25,707 nt of DNA, from IMG/VR virus record IMGVR_UViG_3300020438_000243, positions 1 through 25,707 of that record. The stretch is one strand, 5' to 3'. The translations under genes and the position numbers were made by a program. Under the pieces are notes generated by a model. That model was given only the letters and a program-made list of their open reading frames with translations, did not search any database and was not told the DNA's origin. The stretch comes from a virus. Positions 3,370-23,809 of this stretch are shown in pieces; position 1 is the first letter of the stretch; every line of letters begins with the position of its first letter.

Positions 3370-5691
3370 TTATGCCGTATAATAAAAGCCGCCACAATAA
3401 AGCCAGCTACTTCCGCTTGTTTTTAACTGTGAAATCGGCCAGCCATCAAAACCACTTGCTGGCTGAAAACTTATATAAGTTTGCCCTGCACTAACACTAC
3501 CGAAATGTGCATTAGCACTAGCCCAATATTTTGAGTAGCCAATATCGACCGATCCAGAACTATTACTGTTTTGTTCATCTAAGCAAGTAAACGGTAGTCC
3601 TCCAAGGTACAAATTACCCGACGCACTTCCATGACTAGATCCAGTAGGGCTGATAGCTATCTTAAAGGTAACATACCTGCCTATTTTTGTGTACCATCCA
3701 TTTTGATAGTTATACGATACTGATGAAAAGCTTCCGCTACTTGGTTGAAAAGCAGGAGTAAAAGTTCCTTCTTCGTAGTCATCTAATAAGTTTGCTGCGG
3801 TTGCTGAGTTTACACCTAAATAAATACCTGATGATGCTGAAGCAGGCAGTAAATTATTACTTGACGAACTCCATCCATCAATTCCAGCAGCAGCCCAAGT
3901 TAATCCGCCAGTGTTTCCTGATTGGGCTGAAAGAAAATACCCATTAGTAGGAGAGTTACTAACTTGTAATCTAGCCTCATTAACTGCGTCATCTGCTACG
4001 GCTGCTTGTACAACTGCATCATCCGCTATAAGTGCGGAAGTAATCGCATCGTCAGCTATAAGTGCAGAAGTAATCGCATCATCTGCAATAAGTGCGGAAG
4101 TAATCGCATCATCTGCAATAAGTGCGGAAGTAATCGCATCGTCAGCTATCTTAGCTGAAGTAACTGCATCATCTGCTAGATCAGCAGTTACGATAGTACC
4201 ATCTACAATTTTTGCTGATGTAACTGTATTATCCCCTGGAGTTACACCACTTGACCCATCTAATAATATGTTTGTAGGACGATAAGGATAAACAAATATC
4301 ACACTCGCACTTTCTACATAAACAATCGGTTGTGATATTGTAGGTTCAGTGGCAGTTAAACCACCTGCAGAAGAAGAGCTTAAGTAATACCATTGTCCGA
4401 CTGTCAAACCATGAGAAGATATTGTAAATCTTCCTGCTTGTGCTACAGTAAAGTTATTTGAATCTGCTACTGCTGTTACAATTCCGAGTGCAAGAGTTGA
4501 ATTATCATTTGCTTGTGCTTTTACCCAACTAGATCCATTGTGTCTTATTGCATCTTTTGCTACAAGTCCATGACTTGATTGAGTAATATCAGTTGTGTTT
4601 CCAGTCGAAGAACCCCCTCCACCTGATACTGTAATTGTTTTAGTTGCACCAGTTCCACTAGCTGTTACTCCTGATCCTACAAAATTTAGAGTAGTAGCTG
4701 CTGTTGATAAAGATGAGCCTTCCTCTTGTACTGTAAGAGAGCTACCAGAACTATCATTTACCCAAGCATAGTCTGAGCCATTCCAACCAAGTATTTGTCC
4801 GTTTCCAGCACTACTTTGATTTAAGTGTGTGTCAACCCTCGCATTTGTATAGTATAAATTGGTTGAGCCCTCTGTAATTTCATCAGAGTTATCTTTTGTA
4901 GCTACCTGTGCATCCACATATGCTTTTACTGATTGTTGTGAGGCTACATGAGTTGCACTATTTGAAGCCATATTGTCTTCATCTTTTAGTGCATTTGTTA
5001 TTCTTGCATCAGCTCTCGCACTTGTAAAGTATAGATTACTTGATCCTTCACTTAAATTATCTGTATCTGCTGCTGCAATTCTCGCATCAGCTCTCGCATT
5101 TGTAAAGTATAGGTTACTTGATCCTTCACTAACGTCATCTGTATCTACACCCGTATAATTTCTTGTATTTGTAACAATTTGATTTCCCATTAAACCGTGG
5201 GAAGAGCATTGATAGTGTAATACTAACGGTGTAGCGTCAGCTACTACAATTTGTGTATATGCTCCGGATGACCCAGGAGTACCGTTAGTTGTTACTCCAG
5301 TAGAATAAGCAGTAGTTTTTGCAGATTCATAGTAAAAAAGAAGTGGATGACCGCTATTTGAACTATCTGCTTGGTCAAACTTATATGTGTTTCCAGGAGC
5401 AAGTATAAGTGTTGGAGAAAATGATCCGTCTATCTTATACCCAGAACTTGAACCAGAGCCATTATATCTATGAGTCGCATCTTTTGTAGCTACTGTAACT
5501 TTAAAAGTAACCGCAGAACTTTCATGACGAATTCCTCCGGCTTCTCCAACAGTAATAATATCTCCATTGGCATCACGGACAAAAATTCGTTGGTCTTTAG
5601 CATTAAGTGCAACTTCGCCTACAGCTATATCACTTGCTGTAGGCTTAGAAAGAGCTGTTTCACTCTTTTTTACTTTAATTACTACTGGCAT
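3370..5691 (-). CDS. 773-aa tail fibre with cupredoxin-like domain, decapeptide stalk and C-terminal tip
   Basis: This is a long mosaic fibre. Residues 1-55 form a fibre-type head (KPTASDIAVGEVALNAKDQR, then IFVRDANGDIITVGE). Residues about 58-176 resemble a cupredoxin, with candidate copper ligands H115, C162, H165 and M168. Residues about 183-290 carry [LI]SEGSSNLYFTNARADARI-type repeats. Residues 486-575 are nine decapeptides, four of them exact ADDAITSALI. The junction NSPTNGYFLSAQSGNTGG follows at about 579-600. Residues about 635-773 form a tip with DDYEEGTFTPAF and NGWYTKIGRYVTF, typical of phage fibre ends. The RBS is AGGAC. It probably recognises the host surface. The head and the complete tip suggest it can act as a whole fibre. 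Confidence 0.85.
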   Translation of the reverse strand: MPVVIKVKKSETALSKPTASDIAVGEVALNAKDQRIFVRDANGDIITVGEAGGIRHESSAVTFKVTVATKDATHRYNGSGSSSGYKIDGSFSPTLILAPGNTYKFDQADSSNSGHPLLFYYESAKTTAYSTGVTTNGTPGSSGAYTQIVVADATPLVLHYQCSSHGLMGNQIVTNTRNYTGVDTDDVSEGSSNLYFTNARADARIAAADTDNLSEGSSNLYFTSARADARITNALKDEDNMASNSATHVASQQSVKAYVDAQVATKDNSDEITEGSTNLYYTNARVDTHLNQSSAGNGQILGWNGSDYAWVNDSSGSSLTVQEEGSSLSTAATTLNFVGSGVTASGTGATKTITVSGGGGSSTGNTTDITQSSHGLVAKDAIRHNGSSWVKAQANDNSTLALGIVTAVADSNNFTVAQAGRFTISSHGLTVGQWYYLSSSSAGGLTATEPTISQPIVYVESASVIFVYPYRPTNILLDGSSGVTPGDNTVTSAKIVDGTIVTADLADDAVTSAKIADDAITSALIADDAITSALIADDAITSALIADDAITSALIADDAVVQAAVADDAVNEARLQVSNSPTNGYFLSAQSGNTGGLTWAAAGIDGWSSSSNNLLPASASSGIYLGVNSATAANLLDDYEEGTFTPAFQPSSGSFSSVSYNYQNGWYTKIGRYVTFKIAISPTGSSHGSASGNLYLGGLPFTCLDEQNSNSSGSVDIGYSKYWASANAHFGSVSAGQTYISFQPASGFDGWPISQLKTSGSSWLYCGGFYYTA
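3893..3997 (-). repeat. Dispersed 105-bp repeat, copy B
   Basis: This is the partner of 1080-1184, in the 773-aa fibre gene in the same frame and at the same stalk-tip position. The flanking tip sequences are unrelated, so the repeat marks an exchange or duplication junction. Confidence 0.9.
3967..4236 (-). repeat. Nine 30-bp/decapeptide tandem repeats in the 773-aa fibre
   Basis: Residues 486-575 divide exactly into nine decapeptides. Four in a row are ADDAITSALI, and the 30-bp units at 4081-4110 and 4111-4140 are identical. Unit boundaries keep frame, so copy-number change would alter stalk length without breaking the gene. Confidence 0.9.
5001..5148 (-). repeat. Two imperfect 70-bp units (period 78 bp) in the 773-aa fibre
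   Basis: The segments at 5001-5070 and 5079-5148 are closely similar and encode SEGSSNLYFT[NS]ARADARI. A third, more diverged copy (EGSTNLYYTNARVDTHL) lies near 4820-4880. Confidence 0.8.
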
Positions 5692-20100: not shown

Positions 20101-21095
20101 ATTTCACCTCTATAATCTTTTAAACCCTCTCTTTGCGCCTCTAAACTTTTATTTACTTTCTTTCCCCAGTTTTCGAAGGAAGGAATAAGGCTCTTAATAA
20201 TAGGAAGAGCCATTAAAGTTAAAGCAGCAGTCAAAGCTCTTGTGTTTCCAGCAAGAAAATCAAAAACAGGTCGCAATCCTTTCATAGCCCCAGTTTTTAT
20301 AGAGTTCATTAAATCATCAAAACTAACAAGAAATTTATTTAAAGAGGCAGCAGAAGGATCCATTATTTCATTAATAGCTCCAAATTTTTCTTCTGCTTGT
20401 GTTAAGGTTTCGATTGCTACTGCTTGGCTTTTCTGAAAAGTAGTTAAATCATCTTTTGCTAGTCCTAAAGTATCGGCATATTTTTGTGTAGCATCATCTA
20501 GTCTAAGAATAATACCTAGTTCATCTAACAATTCTGGTTCTGCTTTAGTAATACCACGAACTAAACGATTAAATGAATCTGTTAAGTCTCGTCCCAAAGC
20601 ATTTGAAACATTTTTAGCCGCCACTCCTAATCTATCTAATTGTTCGGGACTTAATCCAGCAGCTGTACCAATAGCGGCTGCTTTTGCAGCTTCTGCATAC
20701 GCTATCTGCCCTCCGGTTGCTTCTTTGATACTTGCTGTAATTGTTTTATATGCTACCCCCGATACGGCTCCTAATGCTTCTTGACCCGCTATAAGGTTAA
20801 CAACATCACTTGCGCTTTTAAGAAATTGAAATGCAGCAGATACAGCAAATACTTGAGCAGCTAACGTTGCATAAACACCAACTAAGCCTCCCACTCCTTG
20901 CTGCATTTTTGAGAAACTTTTTACACCACGGTTAGACATATCCGCAGCGCCACCCATATTTCTACGAGCATTGTTAGATTTATTGCCTAAATCATCCATG
21001 CCCTTGGCGGCTTTTTTAGATTCTACTCCTACTTTCTTTAGAGTACCATCATCATCCGCATGTACATCTATTTCAATTTTATTCTTTTTTGCCAT
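17124..21095 (-). CDS. Tape measure protein, 1323 aa (lambda H-like)
   Basis: This is a very long, Ala/Lys/Gln-rich helical protein with coiled-coil stretches (residues about 760-1130) and hydrophobic segments near 60-105, 285-310 and 458-510. The C-terminal segment at about 1150-1215 (MSGAFEDMITGAKSAKEAF ... MLKALGALGFADGGI) matches the lambda tape-measure C-terminal domain. It is followed by GNEAVVPLPSGGAIPVQG, a typical end for this family. It sets tail length and is probably ejected with DNA. By the lambda ratio (853 aa for about 135 nm) the tail would be roughly 200 nm, which is inferred. The start overlaps the chaperone fusion stop as TAATG. Confidence 0.95.
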   Translation of the reverse strand: MAKKNKIEIDVHADDDGTLKKVGVESKKAAKGMDDLGNKSNNARRNMGGAADMSNRGVKSFSKMQQGVGGLVGVYATLAAQVFAVSAAFQFLKSASDVVNLIAGQEALGAVSGVAYKTITASIKEATGGQIAYAEAAKAAAIGTAAGLSPEQLDRLGVAAKNVSNALGRDLTDSFNRLVRGITKAEPELLDELGIILRLDDATQKYADTLGLAKDDLTTFQKSQAVAIETLTQAEEKFGAINEIMDPSAASLNKFLVSFDDLMNSIKTGAMKGLRPVFDFLAGNTRALTAALTLMALPIIKSLIPSFENWGKKVNKSLEAQREGLKDYRGEIDKTKDAIKLMGRDSASIGKSSAGVLGSLGKDTTSASKGSGAAFLLGTSDTKAAQNNARKILDNAKAQMKEHNMVLTGYLQGATVEQLALLETNYAQRRLLLKKHEAAHGNSWKKLGLHVKHYVQEAKLALMSLGTSMVSFVGNIGTHLAKLFSIGMWLSLGAMVGELLLGWLDKLYPIGEEAEKLQLRIEKLEKSNKTLNEELKKMAQYKSFLTLGEQVKQIGQAFTSTNIIGKLRELRTLQERPPPAQKESTKLLNDIKSFLNQPVPGTQWMGQAFNNAVNTIPLIGRLNKVGLEAAETHKKAMQDPHWQKASDGTLEVLKNLAQLNPEVQAYVELFEEQGHLTAKQAVELDKVQQKWQTYGMGVAKAKDSIKEFNDELRALIGEGLQFDPTAQLRMVGAKSIKVQSEGLQGMAEEQGNTAQARINKKAELRSQYQQKRDLLAQNRQFVDTSSGTIAFTSTDNPDAARQAQEEWNKITLLIKNSKFEVDEYGKKIVDNNKALEAAIKQLARTMRIQKAMNKLSEEIRPMLEKRNRLELESAQMKTLGITVEQKMANFQAAELGRQAKSLKLQENLKVALTAQTTARAEYGRDETELNKEAKIAAENAVKLANHKIALDVEEVRLAREKARLEQMKLGFMLAQAAISQDTTGMLEAQILEDSRRRREESMLGGGGRNKVQLGLEKRQRTIESIEGANGKIHQAINDQFAAETKQREAYAIGTAAEQAAADRGVVTAKAKLQVLRDQVHALKNYNQIQVNALQNEQADAQKALGELSLDPRKQAQKQALGRLDENATDQQKKDAIKAASATFDLNLQLEETSALYETIQSSMSGAFEDMITGAKSAKEAFASMAKSMLAELAKIIAKRLMLKALGALGFADGGITPKLKGRSYTVGGVARGPSSGYQATLHGNEAVVPLPSGGAIPVQGTGLGGGTNNVTVNVNVDNNGNATSESRGQGMGQDLGKVVAKAVQEELQYQKRSGGILNPYGAA

Positions 21096-21948
21096 TATCC
21101 TTTAACATTATGGGTGTATGTTTGTCCACCGCCTGTTTTAGATTTGCGTTCTTCTTGTTTACGTTTTCGTTCTGCTTCATCAGCTGCATTCTTTACTACA
21201 ATTCTTTCAATTAACTTCATGAAATAAACGGTTATTTTTTTATCTTCTATTTCATGCAAGTTTAGAAAAAACTCACAAGAAGACCACTCTTTACCTAGAT
21301 AGGTTCCCGACATTCCATCAAAACTATCTTTTAATTGCCCAAATATAAAAAATGCCACTTGAACCTCCTCAGGGTAGAGGGTTTCCTGTGGCATTCTTCT
21401 GGGGTCGGGGGTTTCGCCCGTTTGTTCACATATTTTTAAATATGTTTCAAAATCAAGTTTACTTGAAGAATTTTGTGTGTCTGCAACAAGCAGCCTTTCT
21501 ATTTCAGCTACTTGTTCTTCGTAAAATTTTCAAGATCACCTACAGTTTCTGTTACCCACGTATCGAAATCATTCGCATTTTTCATGAGCATTTCTGCATT
21601 ATCTGCAGTGTAGGGCAAACAATCATCTGGGTCAAAAGCCGCAACATCCACCAAAAGAAGCTCTTCTAGGTAGGAATATTTTAGGCCGCTCCACCCTTTG
21701 ATAATGGCTTTGCAGTATTCTTCTAAGAACTTATCATCATCCAGATCTTCTTCGGGTTGGCGAGTTTTCTTGTTCCACTTTGTTCTTAAACAACGCTTTC
21801 GAAGTTTAACTAATTCTTCTCTTGCTAGATAGCAGAGACTTACAGTCATTCCTTCATACCCAGGGTAGTCAAGAGTTAAAGTTTTACTAGGAGTCATTAA
21901 ACTCGCAAGTGATACAGGGTCTTTTTTTGTACTAGTTTGATCTGGCAT
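21095..21948 (-). CDS. Tail assembly chaperone G-T-type fusion made by -1 frameshifting (284 aa)
   Basis: Translation starts at 21948 and follows the G-like frame to F142 (codon TTT 21525-21523). It slips back one base and reads TAC at 21523-21521, then continues open to the TAA at 21097-21095. The extension adds 142 aa: YEEQVAEIERLLVADTQ, then a middle with ETPDPRRMPQETLYP, then a charged end (DEAERKRKQEERKSK). The only AUG within it (21394) has no convincing RBS, so fusion is more likely than separate translation. In lambda, gpG and gpGT in fixed ratio bind the tape measure and recruit tube subunits. The tape measure gene starts at the last base of this stop. Confidence 0.9.
21485..21516 (-). 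promoter_or_regulatory. Frameshift-stimulating hairpin
   Basis: On the minus strand AACAAGTAGC (21516-21507) pairs over 10 bp with GCTGCTTGTT (21494-21485), with one G-U wobble, around a 12-nt loop. It starts 6 nt after the slippery heptamer, the usual spacing for a -1 frameshift stimulator. The zero-frame stop TAG (21510-21508) lies inside the 5' arm. Energy is not computed here. Confidence 0.8.
21508..21948 (-). CDS. Tail assembly chaperone, lambda G-like, 146 aa
   Basis: This soluble protein lies just before the tape measure gene, the usual place of the G chaperone. Its segments include LTLDYPGYEGMTVSLCYLAR, EELVKLRKRCLRTKWNK and LLLVDVAAFDPDDCLPYTA. It ends LENFTKNK at a TAG that is bypassed when the ribosome slips four codons earlier. 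The ATG at 21948 has AAGGA upstream, and the gene is the first after a promoter at 21980-22008. It binds the tape measure protein during tail assembly and is absent from the virion in lambda. The family call rests mainly on position plus the frameshift, since chaperone sequences diverge strongly. Confidence 0.88.
   Translation of the reverse strand: MPDQTSTKKDPVSLASLMTPSKTLTLDYPGYEGMTVSLCYLAREELVKLRKRCLRTKWNKKTRQPEEDLDDDKFLEEYCKAIIKGWSGLKYSYLEELLLVDVAAFDPDDCLPYTADNAEMLMKNANDFDTWVTETVGDLENFTKNK
21523..21529 (-). promoter_or_regulatory. Slippery heptamer A AAT TTT for -1 frameshifting
   Basis: In the G-like frame the codons are GAA AAT TTT ACG, so the heptamer A AAT TTT fits the X XXY YYZ rule exactly. 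It lets both tRNAs re-pair as AAA TTT. The -1 frame is then open for 142 codons to the tape measure start. Confidence 0.9.
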
Positions 21949-22063: not shown

Positions 22064-23809
22064 TTAATATGAAGAAGGTGGGAAATAAGTAATTGTCTCA
22101 ATTTCATCCGCATCACCCAAACTAGTAGGCAGAGCCTGCATATTAGTTTCTAGTGATATAATATCTTCAATTGAGTGCGTAGGTACTTCAATGTGTGCTG
22201 CCGGTAGTATGAGCTGGAATCCAGCATCAGTACCAGTAGAAACGCAAGCTGCACTTCCTCCAACATCCATTGTTACCTTAAACTTATTCACAACTTTTGC
22301 TAATGCATTGGTGCCTACCATATCGGTAAAGAATTGTCGTGAGGTTCCATTCAATCCTACTTCACCAGCAGCATCATCAAGCGTTAGATAACAAGTAGCT
22401 GCAGCAGTTGCAGTTCTTGTACCTGTTACGTGCTCTAGTGGCTTGTTAATTGCTCCTAGTTCCTCAGGAACTAAATAAGTAACATTATTGGAAATTGTAA
22501 AACTTCCACCAGTCAGGGTTAAGCTGTACTTACCGTTAGCAACCGTACCTGTATTTGCATTATAAGTACCTGCAGCAATGGCTACTAGTCCTCCAGCATT
22601 ACCTAGATTTTCGGCCTCGACTTTACTATCGAATAACGCGAACTCAGTAGTAGTATTAGTAGTACCTGCATAAGTACTTGTCTCATCACCAACACGAACA
22701 AATTTATGTGAACCATTTAGGTCAACATTACCTGTACAGCCGGTAATATGTACTTGATCTCCTGTTTTGAAATTATGAGGAGTACTTGTAGTAATAACCT
22801 CATTAGTTACATCAATTGCACTAATAGTAGCAATCGCTCCTGGAAAAGTACCACTAACTTTATCTGCAGCATCTGCTGTTTCAATACTAACCGATGTTAA
22901 ACGGTTACGAATAAAGTTTTTAGTACTAGATATTCCTTCATCAATTGCTTGGGTCGCAGTATGAGTACCGCTAGTATTTATCGCAGTTAGCCAATGCACA
23001 GATCTACTATTTAAAGTATTAATCCATAGATCTCCTATTACAGGATCTCCACCGGAATCAACTCTATCAGTAGCTCCTGCTAAAGCTGAAGGTGACGAAG
23101 TATTTCCGTCTGCAATACAAACATTATCGGAAACATCATTAATTTCTTTTGCGAATCCTGACCAGTTTAGTGTTGCAATACCATCAACATCAAAATCAAT
23201 GCTAACCTCATTAACAACAGCTTCTGGAAGACGATACACTAAAGGATTAGTAGCATCCGTATCGATCAAAAACCAGAATACTAAACTATTTAAAGCGGAG
23301 CGGTTAGATTCTGTAGTTACTATTTCCATAGTAGCATCACTACTAGAACCGGCCTTTGGAGTCAATACTGGTCCGGAAACGGCGGAAGCCGCCCTAGTAA
23401 ATCCGCCTGTTAGTGTATAAGCATCTGCTCCGAACATATGTGCCCAAAGTACTTCTTCAACACCATGACCTTCAGATGCAGAGTCTGCTCTTTTAACACC
23501 TACTCCACTTGATAGAGAGGGCGCTGTACTTTCGAAGGGACGAATATAACTACTAAACGACCATTCTGCAGGAGCTAGTGAGTCCGTAAACATACGACGT
23601 CCTCTACGTGATATACCTGCCGTACTTTCCATTTCTGCGAGTGTTATCTCAGAAGTGTTTGTTGTTTGAGAAAAGCTGTAGCCATCTAATATAGGAATCT
23701 CCCAAAAAGCTCCTTTACCTAGATTTGCAGCATCCTCAGTATTATCCGCTGTAGCTCGAAATTGTACGAAAAATCGAGTATCACGACTAAAATATAGCTG
23801 ATCTGCCAT
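22064..23809 (-). CDS. Major tail tube protein, 581 aa, with a C-terminal-half insertion
   Basis: The N-terminal part (WEIPILDGYSFSQTTNTSEI, TLAEMESTAGISRRGRRMFT, DSLAPAEWSFSSYIRPF) has the style of major tail tube proteins of marine phages. Residues 200-220 (NEVSIDFDVDGIATLNWSGF) continue the tube-like beta pattern. Residues about 325-415 look like an added beta domain (TTSTPHNFKTGDQVHITGCT, then VDLNGSHKFVRVGD). At 581 aa it is more than twice lambda gpV (246 aa). It follows the tail terminator and ends before a strong terminator, consistent with high expression. The RBS AGGAG is clear. The fold is inferred from motif style and position. Confidence 0.85.
   Translation of the reverse strand: MADQLYFSRDTRFFVQFRATADNTEDAANLGKGAFWEIPILDGYSFSQTTNTSEITLAEMESTAGISRRGRRMFTDSLAPAEWSFSSYIRPFESTAPSLSSGVGVKRADSASEGHGVEEVLWAHMFGADAYTLTGGFTRAASAVSGPVLTPKAGSSSDATMEIVTTESNRSALNSLVFWFLIDTDATNPLVYRLPEAVVNEVSIDFDVDGIATLNWSGFAKEINDVSDNVCIADGNTSSPSALAGATDRVDSGGDPVIGDLWINTLNSRSVHWLTAINTSGTHTATQAIDEGISSTKNFIRNRLTSVSIETADAADKVSGTFPGAIATISAIDVTNEVITTSTPHNFKTGDQVHITGCTGNVDLNGSHKFVRVGDETSTYAGTTNTTTEFALFDSKVEAENLGNAGGLVAIAAGTYNANTGTVANGKYSLTLTGGSFTISNNVTYLVPEELGAINKPLEHVTGTRTATAAATCYLTLDDAAGEVGLNGTSRQFFTDMVGTNALAKVVNKFKVTMDVGGSAACVSTGTDAGFQLILPAAHIEVPTHSIEDIISLETNMQALPTSLGDADEIETITYFPPSSY

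Follow-up and report, generated by a model that had tools for sequence, protein, structure and literature searches.

Among the closest described systems is that of phage lambda, in which the tail assembly chaperones gpG and gpGT result from a -1 programmed frameshift (Levin 1993; Xu 2004, as summarised in PMC5009743). There too two ORFs overlap, and a -1 slip near the end of the first fuses two chaperone domains. A large survey found that the direction of the shift is conserved among orthologues using ribosomal frameshifting (PMC3711429). An earlier case of opposite directions is that of the Listeria phage coat proteins, which shift by -1 in A118 and A500 and by +1 in PSA (PMC5009743). This is a precedent for corresponding phage genes with opposite directions, although it concerns the extension of a structural coat protein, not a tail chaperone, and involves other elements. 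Tail genes of haloarchaeal viruses have also been suggested to use either frameshift direction.

The window analysed here, i.e. the whole stretch of 25,707 nucleotides of the IMG/VR record IMGVR_UViG_3300020438_000243, comes from a marine phage. On its minus strand it carries a chaperone pair (21948-21095) that follows the gene of the major tail protein and precedes that of the tape measure, as in lambda G/GT (Table 1). A programmed -1 ribosomal frameshift of the lambda kind very probably makes a chaperone fusion from this pair, as judged from the sequences. The mechanism itself is already known, and a fusion chaperone is what one would expect. The less expected part is an apparent -1/+1 switch between orthologues at the same Phe codon. 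The window differs from lambda in having A_AAT_TTT and not G_GGA_AAG, together with a strong conserved 3' hairpin that holds the stop and a candidate Shine-Dalgarno-like element on the 5' side, and its proteins belong to phrog_313 and phrog_3914. The upstream chaperone matched 898 phage records in a protein search and has a dN/dS of 0.114 in the clade of the window. Its first 142 residues and the 142 codons of the -1 frame give a predicted fusion of 284 amino acids, and the TAA that ends the gpT-like segment overlaps the tape measure ATG at 21095 (TAATG). The elements of the site, their conservation and covariation, the coding selection on the -1 frame and the homology of both halves can all be read directly in the sequences.

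Table 1. Features of the chaperone pair and its surroundings in the window, in order of transcription
Feature	Position	Strand	Remarks
Major tail protein	22064-23809	-	First in gene order, before the chaperone pair
Upstream ORF, gpG-like tail assembly chaperone, 146 aa	21508-21948	-	phrog_313 'Tail assembly chaperone', E=1.4e-14
AGGTGA, anti-Shine-Dalgarno match, candidate 5' stimulator	21536-21541	-	Ends 6 nt 5' of the heptamer
Slippery heptamer A_AAT_TTT (-1), extended motif GAA_AAT_TTT_AC	21523-21529	-	Phase verified
-1 frame (gpT-like) segment, 142 codons, TAC 21523 to stop 21097-21095	21095-21523	-	phrog_3914 'tail assembly chaperone', E=1.2e-9
5' arm of 11-bp stem, conserved 7-bp core 21514-21508	21506-21516	-	RNA fold and covariation; putative stimulator
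Zero-frame stop TAG, within the 5' arm	21508-21510	-	Ends the upstream ORF when no shift occurs
3' arm of stem, core 21493-21487	21485-21495	-	RNA fold and covariation
ATG at which gene callers would begin a 99-aa protein (21394-21095)	21392-21394	-	An internal Met within the fusion is more likely
Tape measure protein, 1323 aa	17124-21095	-	phrog_3779, E=1.2e-47; Tape_meas_lam_C

The site reads CTT GAA AAT TTT ACG AAG AAC AAG TAG, and the phase of the heptamer, GA[A AAT TTT], fits a -1 slip. In the -1 frame the last upstream stop is 22 nt away from the stop of the zero frame, which confines the slip to about 21 nt; the heptamer, at -19, falls inside this interval. The main features of the original prediction were confirmed here: the heptamer in correct phase (21529-21523), a 6-nt spacer (ACGAAG) followed by a hairpin holding the zero-frame stop (TAG 21510-21508), and a -1 frame open for exactly 142 codons up to the tape measure start (21523-21098). 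The junction that it gave for the fusion, ENF followed by YEEQ, is right by translation. A stem was also found as claimed, although its length of 10 bp becomes 11 bp in the minimum free energy structure; the stem first described is the same one minus the last G-U pair next to the loop. In the ORFs of this AT-rich window, canonical XXXYYYZ heptamers occur in phase at 0.73% of codons, which gives a probability of about 0.036-0.05 of finding one by chance in the 5-7 available overlap positions. This is weak evidence alone, and the conservation among relatives was therefore needed to decide.

The upstream protein found 79 IMG/VR loci and related queries added others; once identical contexts had been taken out, 193 distinct loci were left. 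The -1 frame is open in 142 loci with AAATTTT and in 9 with GGGAAAC (L211, L215, L216, L224, L226, L227, L229, L232 and L234), and the +1 frame is open in the other 42, all of which have TTT_CGT or TTT_CGA. All 151 of the -1 loci carry one of the two heptamers. A locus that keeps both ORFs and has lost the site was looked for and found in 0 of the 193; instead, two groups have a different site. The same heptamer in 142 loci, with no siteless locus in 193, settles it as real. Within the clade of the window, GAA, AAT, TTT and the new-frame TAC are each invariant in 89/89, although related sequences make such counts overstate the number of independent events. TAC makes up only 18% of the Tyr codons of the window, yet it is used at the slip site in 89/89. 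Of 68 conserved degenerate codon columns in the clade 8 are invariant, and these four codons account for half of them. The arrangement in the window is far from chance. The mixed alignment of the -1 and +1 groups was too divergent for scanning. The uncultured G_GGA_AAC relatives resemble the window in their -1 direction, their homologous chaperones and a shift within one codon of the same place, and differ from it in the heptamer and in having no hairpin after it. One relative (L235, contig NYWC01000114.1), the only contig obtained from a scan of genome contigs, lies in a Gammaproteobacteria MAG, which is a weak hint at the class of the host and too little for host assignment.

The minimum free energy hairpin has 11 bp, pairing 21516-21506 with 21495-21485, and includes two G-U pairs, one of them adjoining the loop. 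Its energy is -14.4 kcal/mol, with a z-score of -3.8, or -4.6 when the heptamer is included, and 0/200 dinucleotide shuffles were as good. Covariation was examined by applying the structure of the window to 80 different sequences, which had been picked for their protein identity and without regard to structure. In these 80 sequences the 7-bp core is paired in 96% of cells, and the whole 11-bp stem shows 69 two-sided changes against 26 (sd 3.9) when partners were shuffled, with 0/1000 shuffles as high. Sliding the partner strand by 1-3 bases lowered stem pairing from 79% to 19-49%. The zero-frame stop in the stem is TAG or, in some relatives, TAA; the opposite base is C or T with TAG and T with TAA. 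In the 3' arm, the Leu codon at 21490 is CTT in 83/87 Leu rows, while most other Leu columns mix codons. The checks proposed with the original prediction, i.e. heptamer conservation, stem covariation and RNA folding, thus all came out in its favour.

The hairpin goes with AAATTTT and not with GGGAAAC or the +1 sites. For the 45 nt after the site, the median folding z-score reaches -3.3 within the clade and -2.5 for AAATTTT loci that are more distant, against +1.0 after GGGAAAC and -0.8 after TTT_CGN. The earlier description of the window as a differently built version of the lambda switch is in this respect a fair one. Distant AAATTTT relatives keep the stem with another sequence, such as CAGTTAG/CTAACTG in L102 and a 14-bp stem in L212. 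Three loci (L135, L167 and L170) have AAATTTT with nothing at the canonical stem position and another stem, CCCGAATAGA.../...TCTATTCGGG, about 15 nt from the heptamer, and the divergent members L127 and L160 fold poorly. In L007 the in-stem stop TAG is now TCG, which makes the short protein a few residues longer, up to the next stop; the stem is kept. A weaker heptamer may need the hairpin.

Shine-Dalgarno-like stimulators 5' of -1 sites are known from dnaX. The AGGTGA upstream of the heptamer, a six-base complement of the usual 16S 3' end, is present in 63/91 members of the clade. Of the about 80 rows with Gly at this element, 71 have the codon GGT, which makes up 24% in the rest of the gene, and the element may act as a stimulator. 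According to the model that we favour, most ribosomes would translate the upstream chaperone and stop at the TAG, while a minority would pause with AAT in the P site and TTT in the A site, because of the 11-bp hairpin at the mRNA entrance and possibly also because AGGTGA pairs with the 16S rRNA. If the two products work as in lambda, the tape measure would be coated by the short form, and the tail-tube protein would be brought in by the fusion, the rarer of the two. That slippage takes place and how often it does so are inferred, as are the parts played by the stem, AGGTGA and the chaperones.

A gene caller would see downstream only the ORF of 99 amino acids from 21394, as the original prediction had foreseen, and the possibility that this is an independent gene, perhaps translationally coupled, with no fusion being made, has to be considered. 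The ATG at 21394 is kept in 88/89 relatives and several isolates are so annotated. We nevertheless consider such a gene very unlikely. The 41 codons between the slip site and the ATG are under the same selection at the protein level as the rest of the T part (dN/dS of 0.225 and 0.242, respectively). In the whole downstream segment and in this part of it, the -1 frame is stop-free in 89/89 sequences of the clade, and both other frames have stops in 89/89. The codons before the ATG also align with those of the T5-like fusions (KYLKICEQ-GETPDP-like in the former, QYLILCES-GIEPDP in the latter). Reading by eye found no Shine-Dalgarno-like sequence at normal spacing before the ATG, which lies more than 110 nt beyond the zero-frame stop. 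The Met is simply a conserved residue of a P-D-P-x-x-M-P motif, and a separate start would leave the invariant heptamer and the covarying stem unexplained. The segment before the ATG can best be reached by translation from upstream, and the ATG is more likely to encode an internal Met of the fusion than to be a separate start.

The fusion could also arise by transcriptional slippage, the RNA polymerase gaining or losing a base, instead of by ribosomal frameshifting. The stretch AAAATTTT is A/T-rich, and for transposases the occurrence of both +1 and -1 among orthologues served to indicate transcriptional realignment (PMC3711429). This explanation is highly improbable here, as it predicts neither the exact XXXYYYZ phase and the covarying hairpin at 6-8 nt nor the TTT_CGN of the +1 group; furthermore, there is no homopolymer of more than 4 bases, and GGGAAAC lacks any long run. 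That one contig merely carries an indel from sequencing or assembly, which would split a gene that is really a single ORF, is practically excluded. Metagenome contigs do carry such errors, but 142 distinct loci, which come from many samples, share this split down to the base, and this refutes the idea. A probable case of the kind is seen in L076, where the upstream chaperone ORF is broken by an early frame change (~2500-2600), elsewhere in the gene; its slip site and stem are intact. Programmed ribosomal frameshifting is the reading retained for the window. Two further codon-constrained stretches in the same gene pair, described below, were counted against it.

The nearest cultured relatives are Demerecviridae, with Vibrio phage PG07 having 39% identity over 92% of the upstream protein (E=2e-27); a distant blastn search against phages gave only a 92-bp match in the tape measure. 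In the Demerecviridae loci (L081-L095 and L184-L209), TTT_CGT/A lies near the end of the upstream ORF and the downstream chaperone is in the +1 frame (42/42), whereas the window and its clade are -1 and not +1 with TTT_CGN. The pair of T5-like phages such as PG07 and Salmonella phage Shivani has homologous domains, the gene order of the window and, as there, a junction at Phe TTT; unlike the window, it has a +1 downstream ORF, UUU_CGU or UUU_CGA at the junction and no consistent hairpin. The fusions of the -1 and +1 groups are collinear through the junction in the alignment. TTT makes up 33-77% of Phe codons and CGT plus CGA 17-67% of Arg codons in T5-like phages; the same TTT_CGT/A pair in 12 lineages, which are not fully independent, is not explained by codon bias. 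The Arg of TTT_CGN belongs only to the tail of the short product, which is otherwise variable. In Shivani, the joined CDS has a span of 832 nt, as expected if one base is skipped, and joining at TTT(C)GTA gives a single protein up to the annotated stop. Canonical CCCAAAA heptamers, present in part of the T5-like group, were considered and rejected: numerous relatives do not have them, and the -1 frame meets a stop within 3 codons while the +1 frame is open for ~143.

In T5-like phages, a +1 slip at UUU_CGN appears to give the same fusion, again at this Phe codon. Among the isolates examined, Achelous, Gary, pVp-1, PG07 and 294E48.1 have the two chaperones annotated as separate genes, in line with the earlier remark that many marine pairs lack an annotated signal. 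According to the Sugarland announcement, the chaperone of this phage, like that of T5, has no predicted frameshift signal. A mostly unannotated +1 frameshift in Demerecviridae is probable, judging from the conserved sites. If true, this +1 site would have its UUU_CGN core in common with influenza PA-X.

A maximum-likelihood tree built from 47 fusions has a single change of direction, and the branch concerned has support of 100/99; on the -1 side there is at least one change of heptamer. It appears that the protein stayed the same while the direction, the slippery sequence and the stimulator were exchanged. An indel next to the shared TTT would interconvert the two arrangements, as a comparison of AAC_TTT_CGA with GGA_AAC_TTT_TCG suggests. 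We consider it likely that the direction flipped once, between +1 at UUU_CGN in T5-like phages and -1 at A_AAU_UUU or G_GGA_AAC in uncultured aquatic phages, at the same Phe codon; that an indel beside the shared UUU changed the frame; that the hairpin was kept or gained only with A_AAU_UUU; and that T5-like phages use a conserved +1 site. The chaperone family looks like an exception to the conserved direction found in PMC3711429, and no report of a direction switch in this family was found in the literature searched, key subscription papers being beyond reach. These phages offer a natural series in which the same protein junction would be obtained from three decoding signals, of which one acts in the other direction. 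With it one can study how the frame can change in a phage that has to keep its tail, and whether only a weak heptamer requires a hairpin. In addition, it provides a concrete annotation rule for T5-like phages, the group to which the 898 records matching the upstream gene belong.

The strongest constraint on synonymous codons in the gene pair was found at 21652-21672 (-), TACCTAGAAGAGCTTCTTTTG, with an observed/expected ratio of 1.84: the Tyr codon is TAC in 88/89, and the codons GAA and GAG for Glu and CTT, CTT and TTG for Leu are almost fixed. This stretch contains the near-palindrome AGAAGAGCTTCT and has no copies in the rest of the window. The second constrained stretch, in the T part, is CAAGTGGCATTTTT at 21348-21361 (-), where Val is GTG in 84/89, Ala is GCA in 84/89 and Phe is TTT in 89/89. 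Because of the codon constraint, a GTG start inside the T part, at 21358 and preceded by GAGGAGG, was weighed; it was rejected, the Shine-Dalgarno-like bases not being conserved. Copies of both constrained motifs elsewhere in the window showed no excess. In another part of the window, the tail fibre ORF at 3370-5691 (-) encodes a fibre-like protein with repeated ALIADDAITS units, and the opposite strand at 3911-4285 (+), antisense to this ORF, is open as a by-product.
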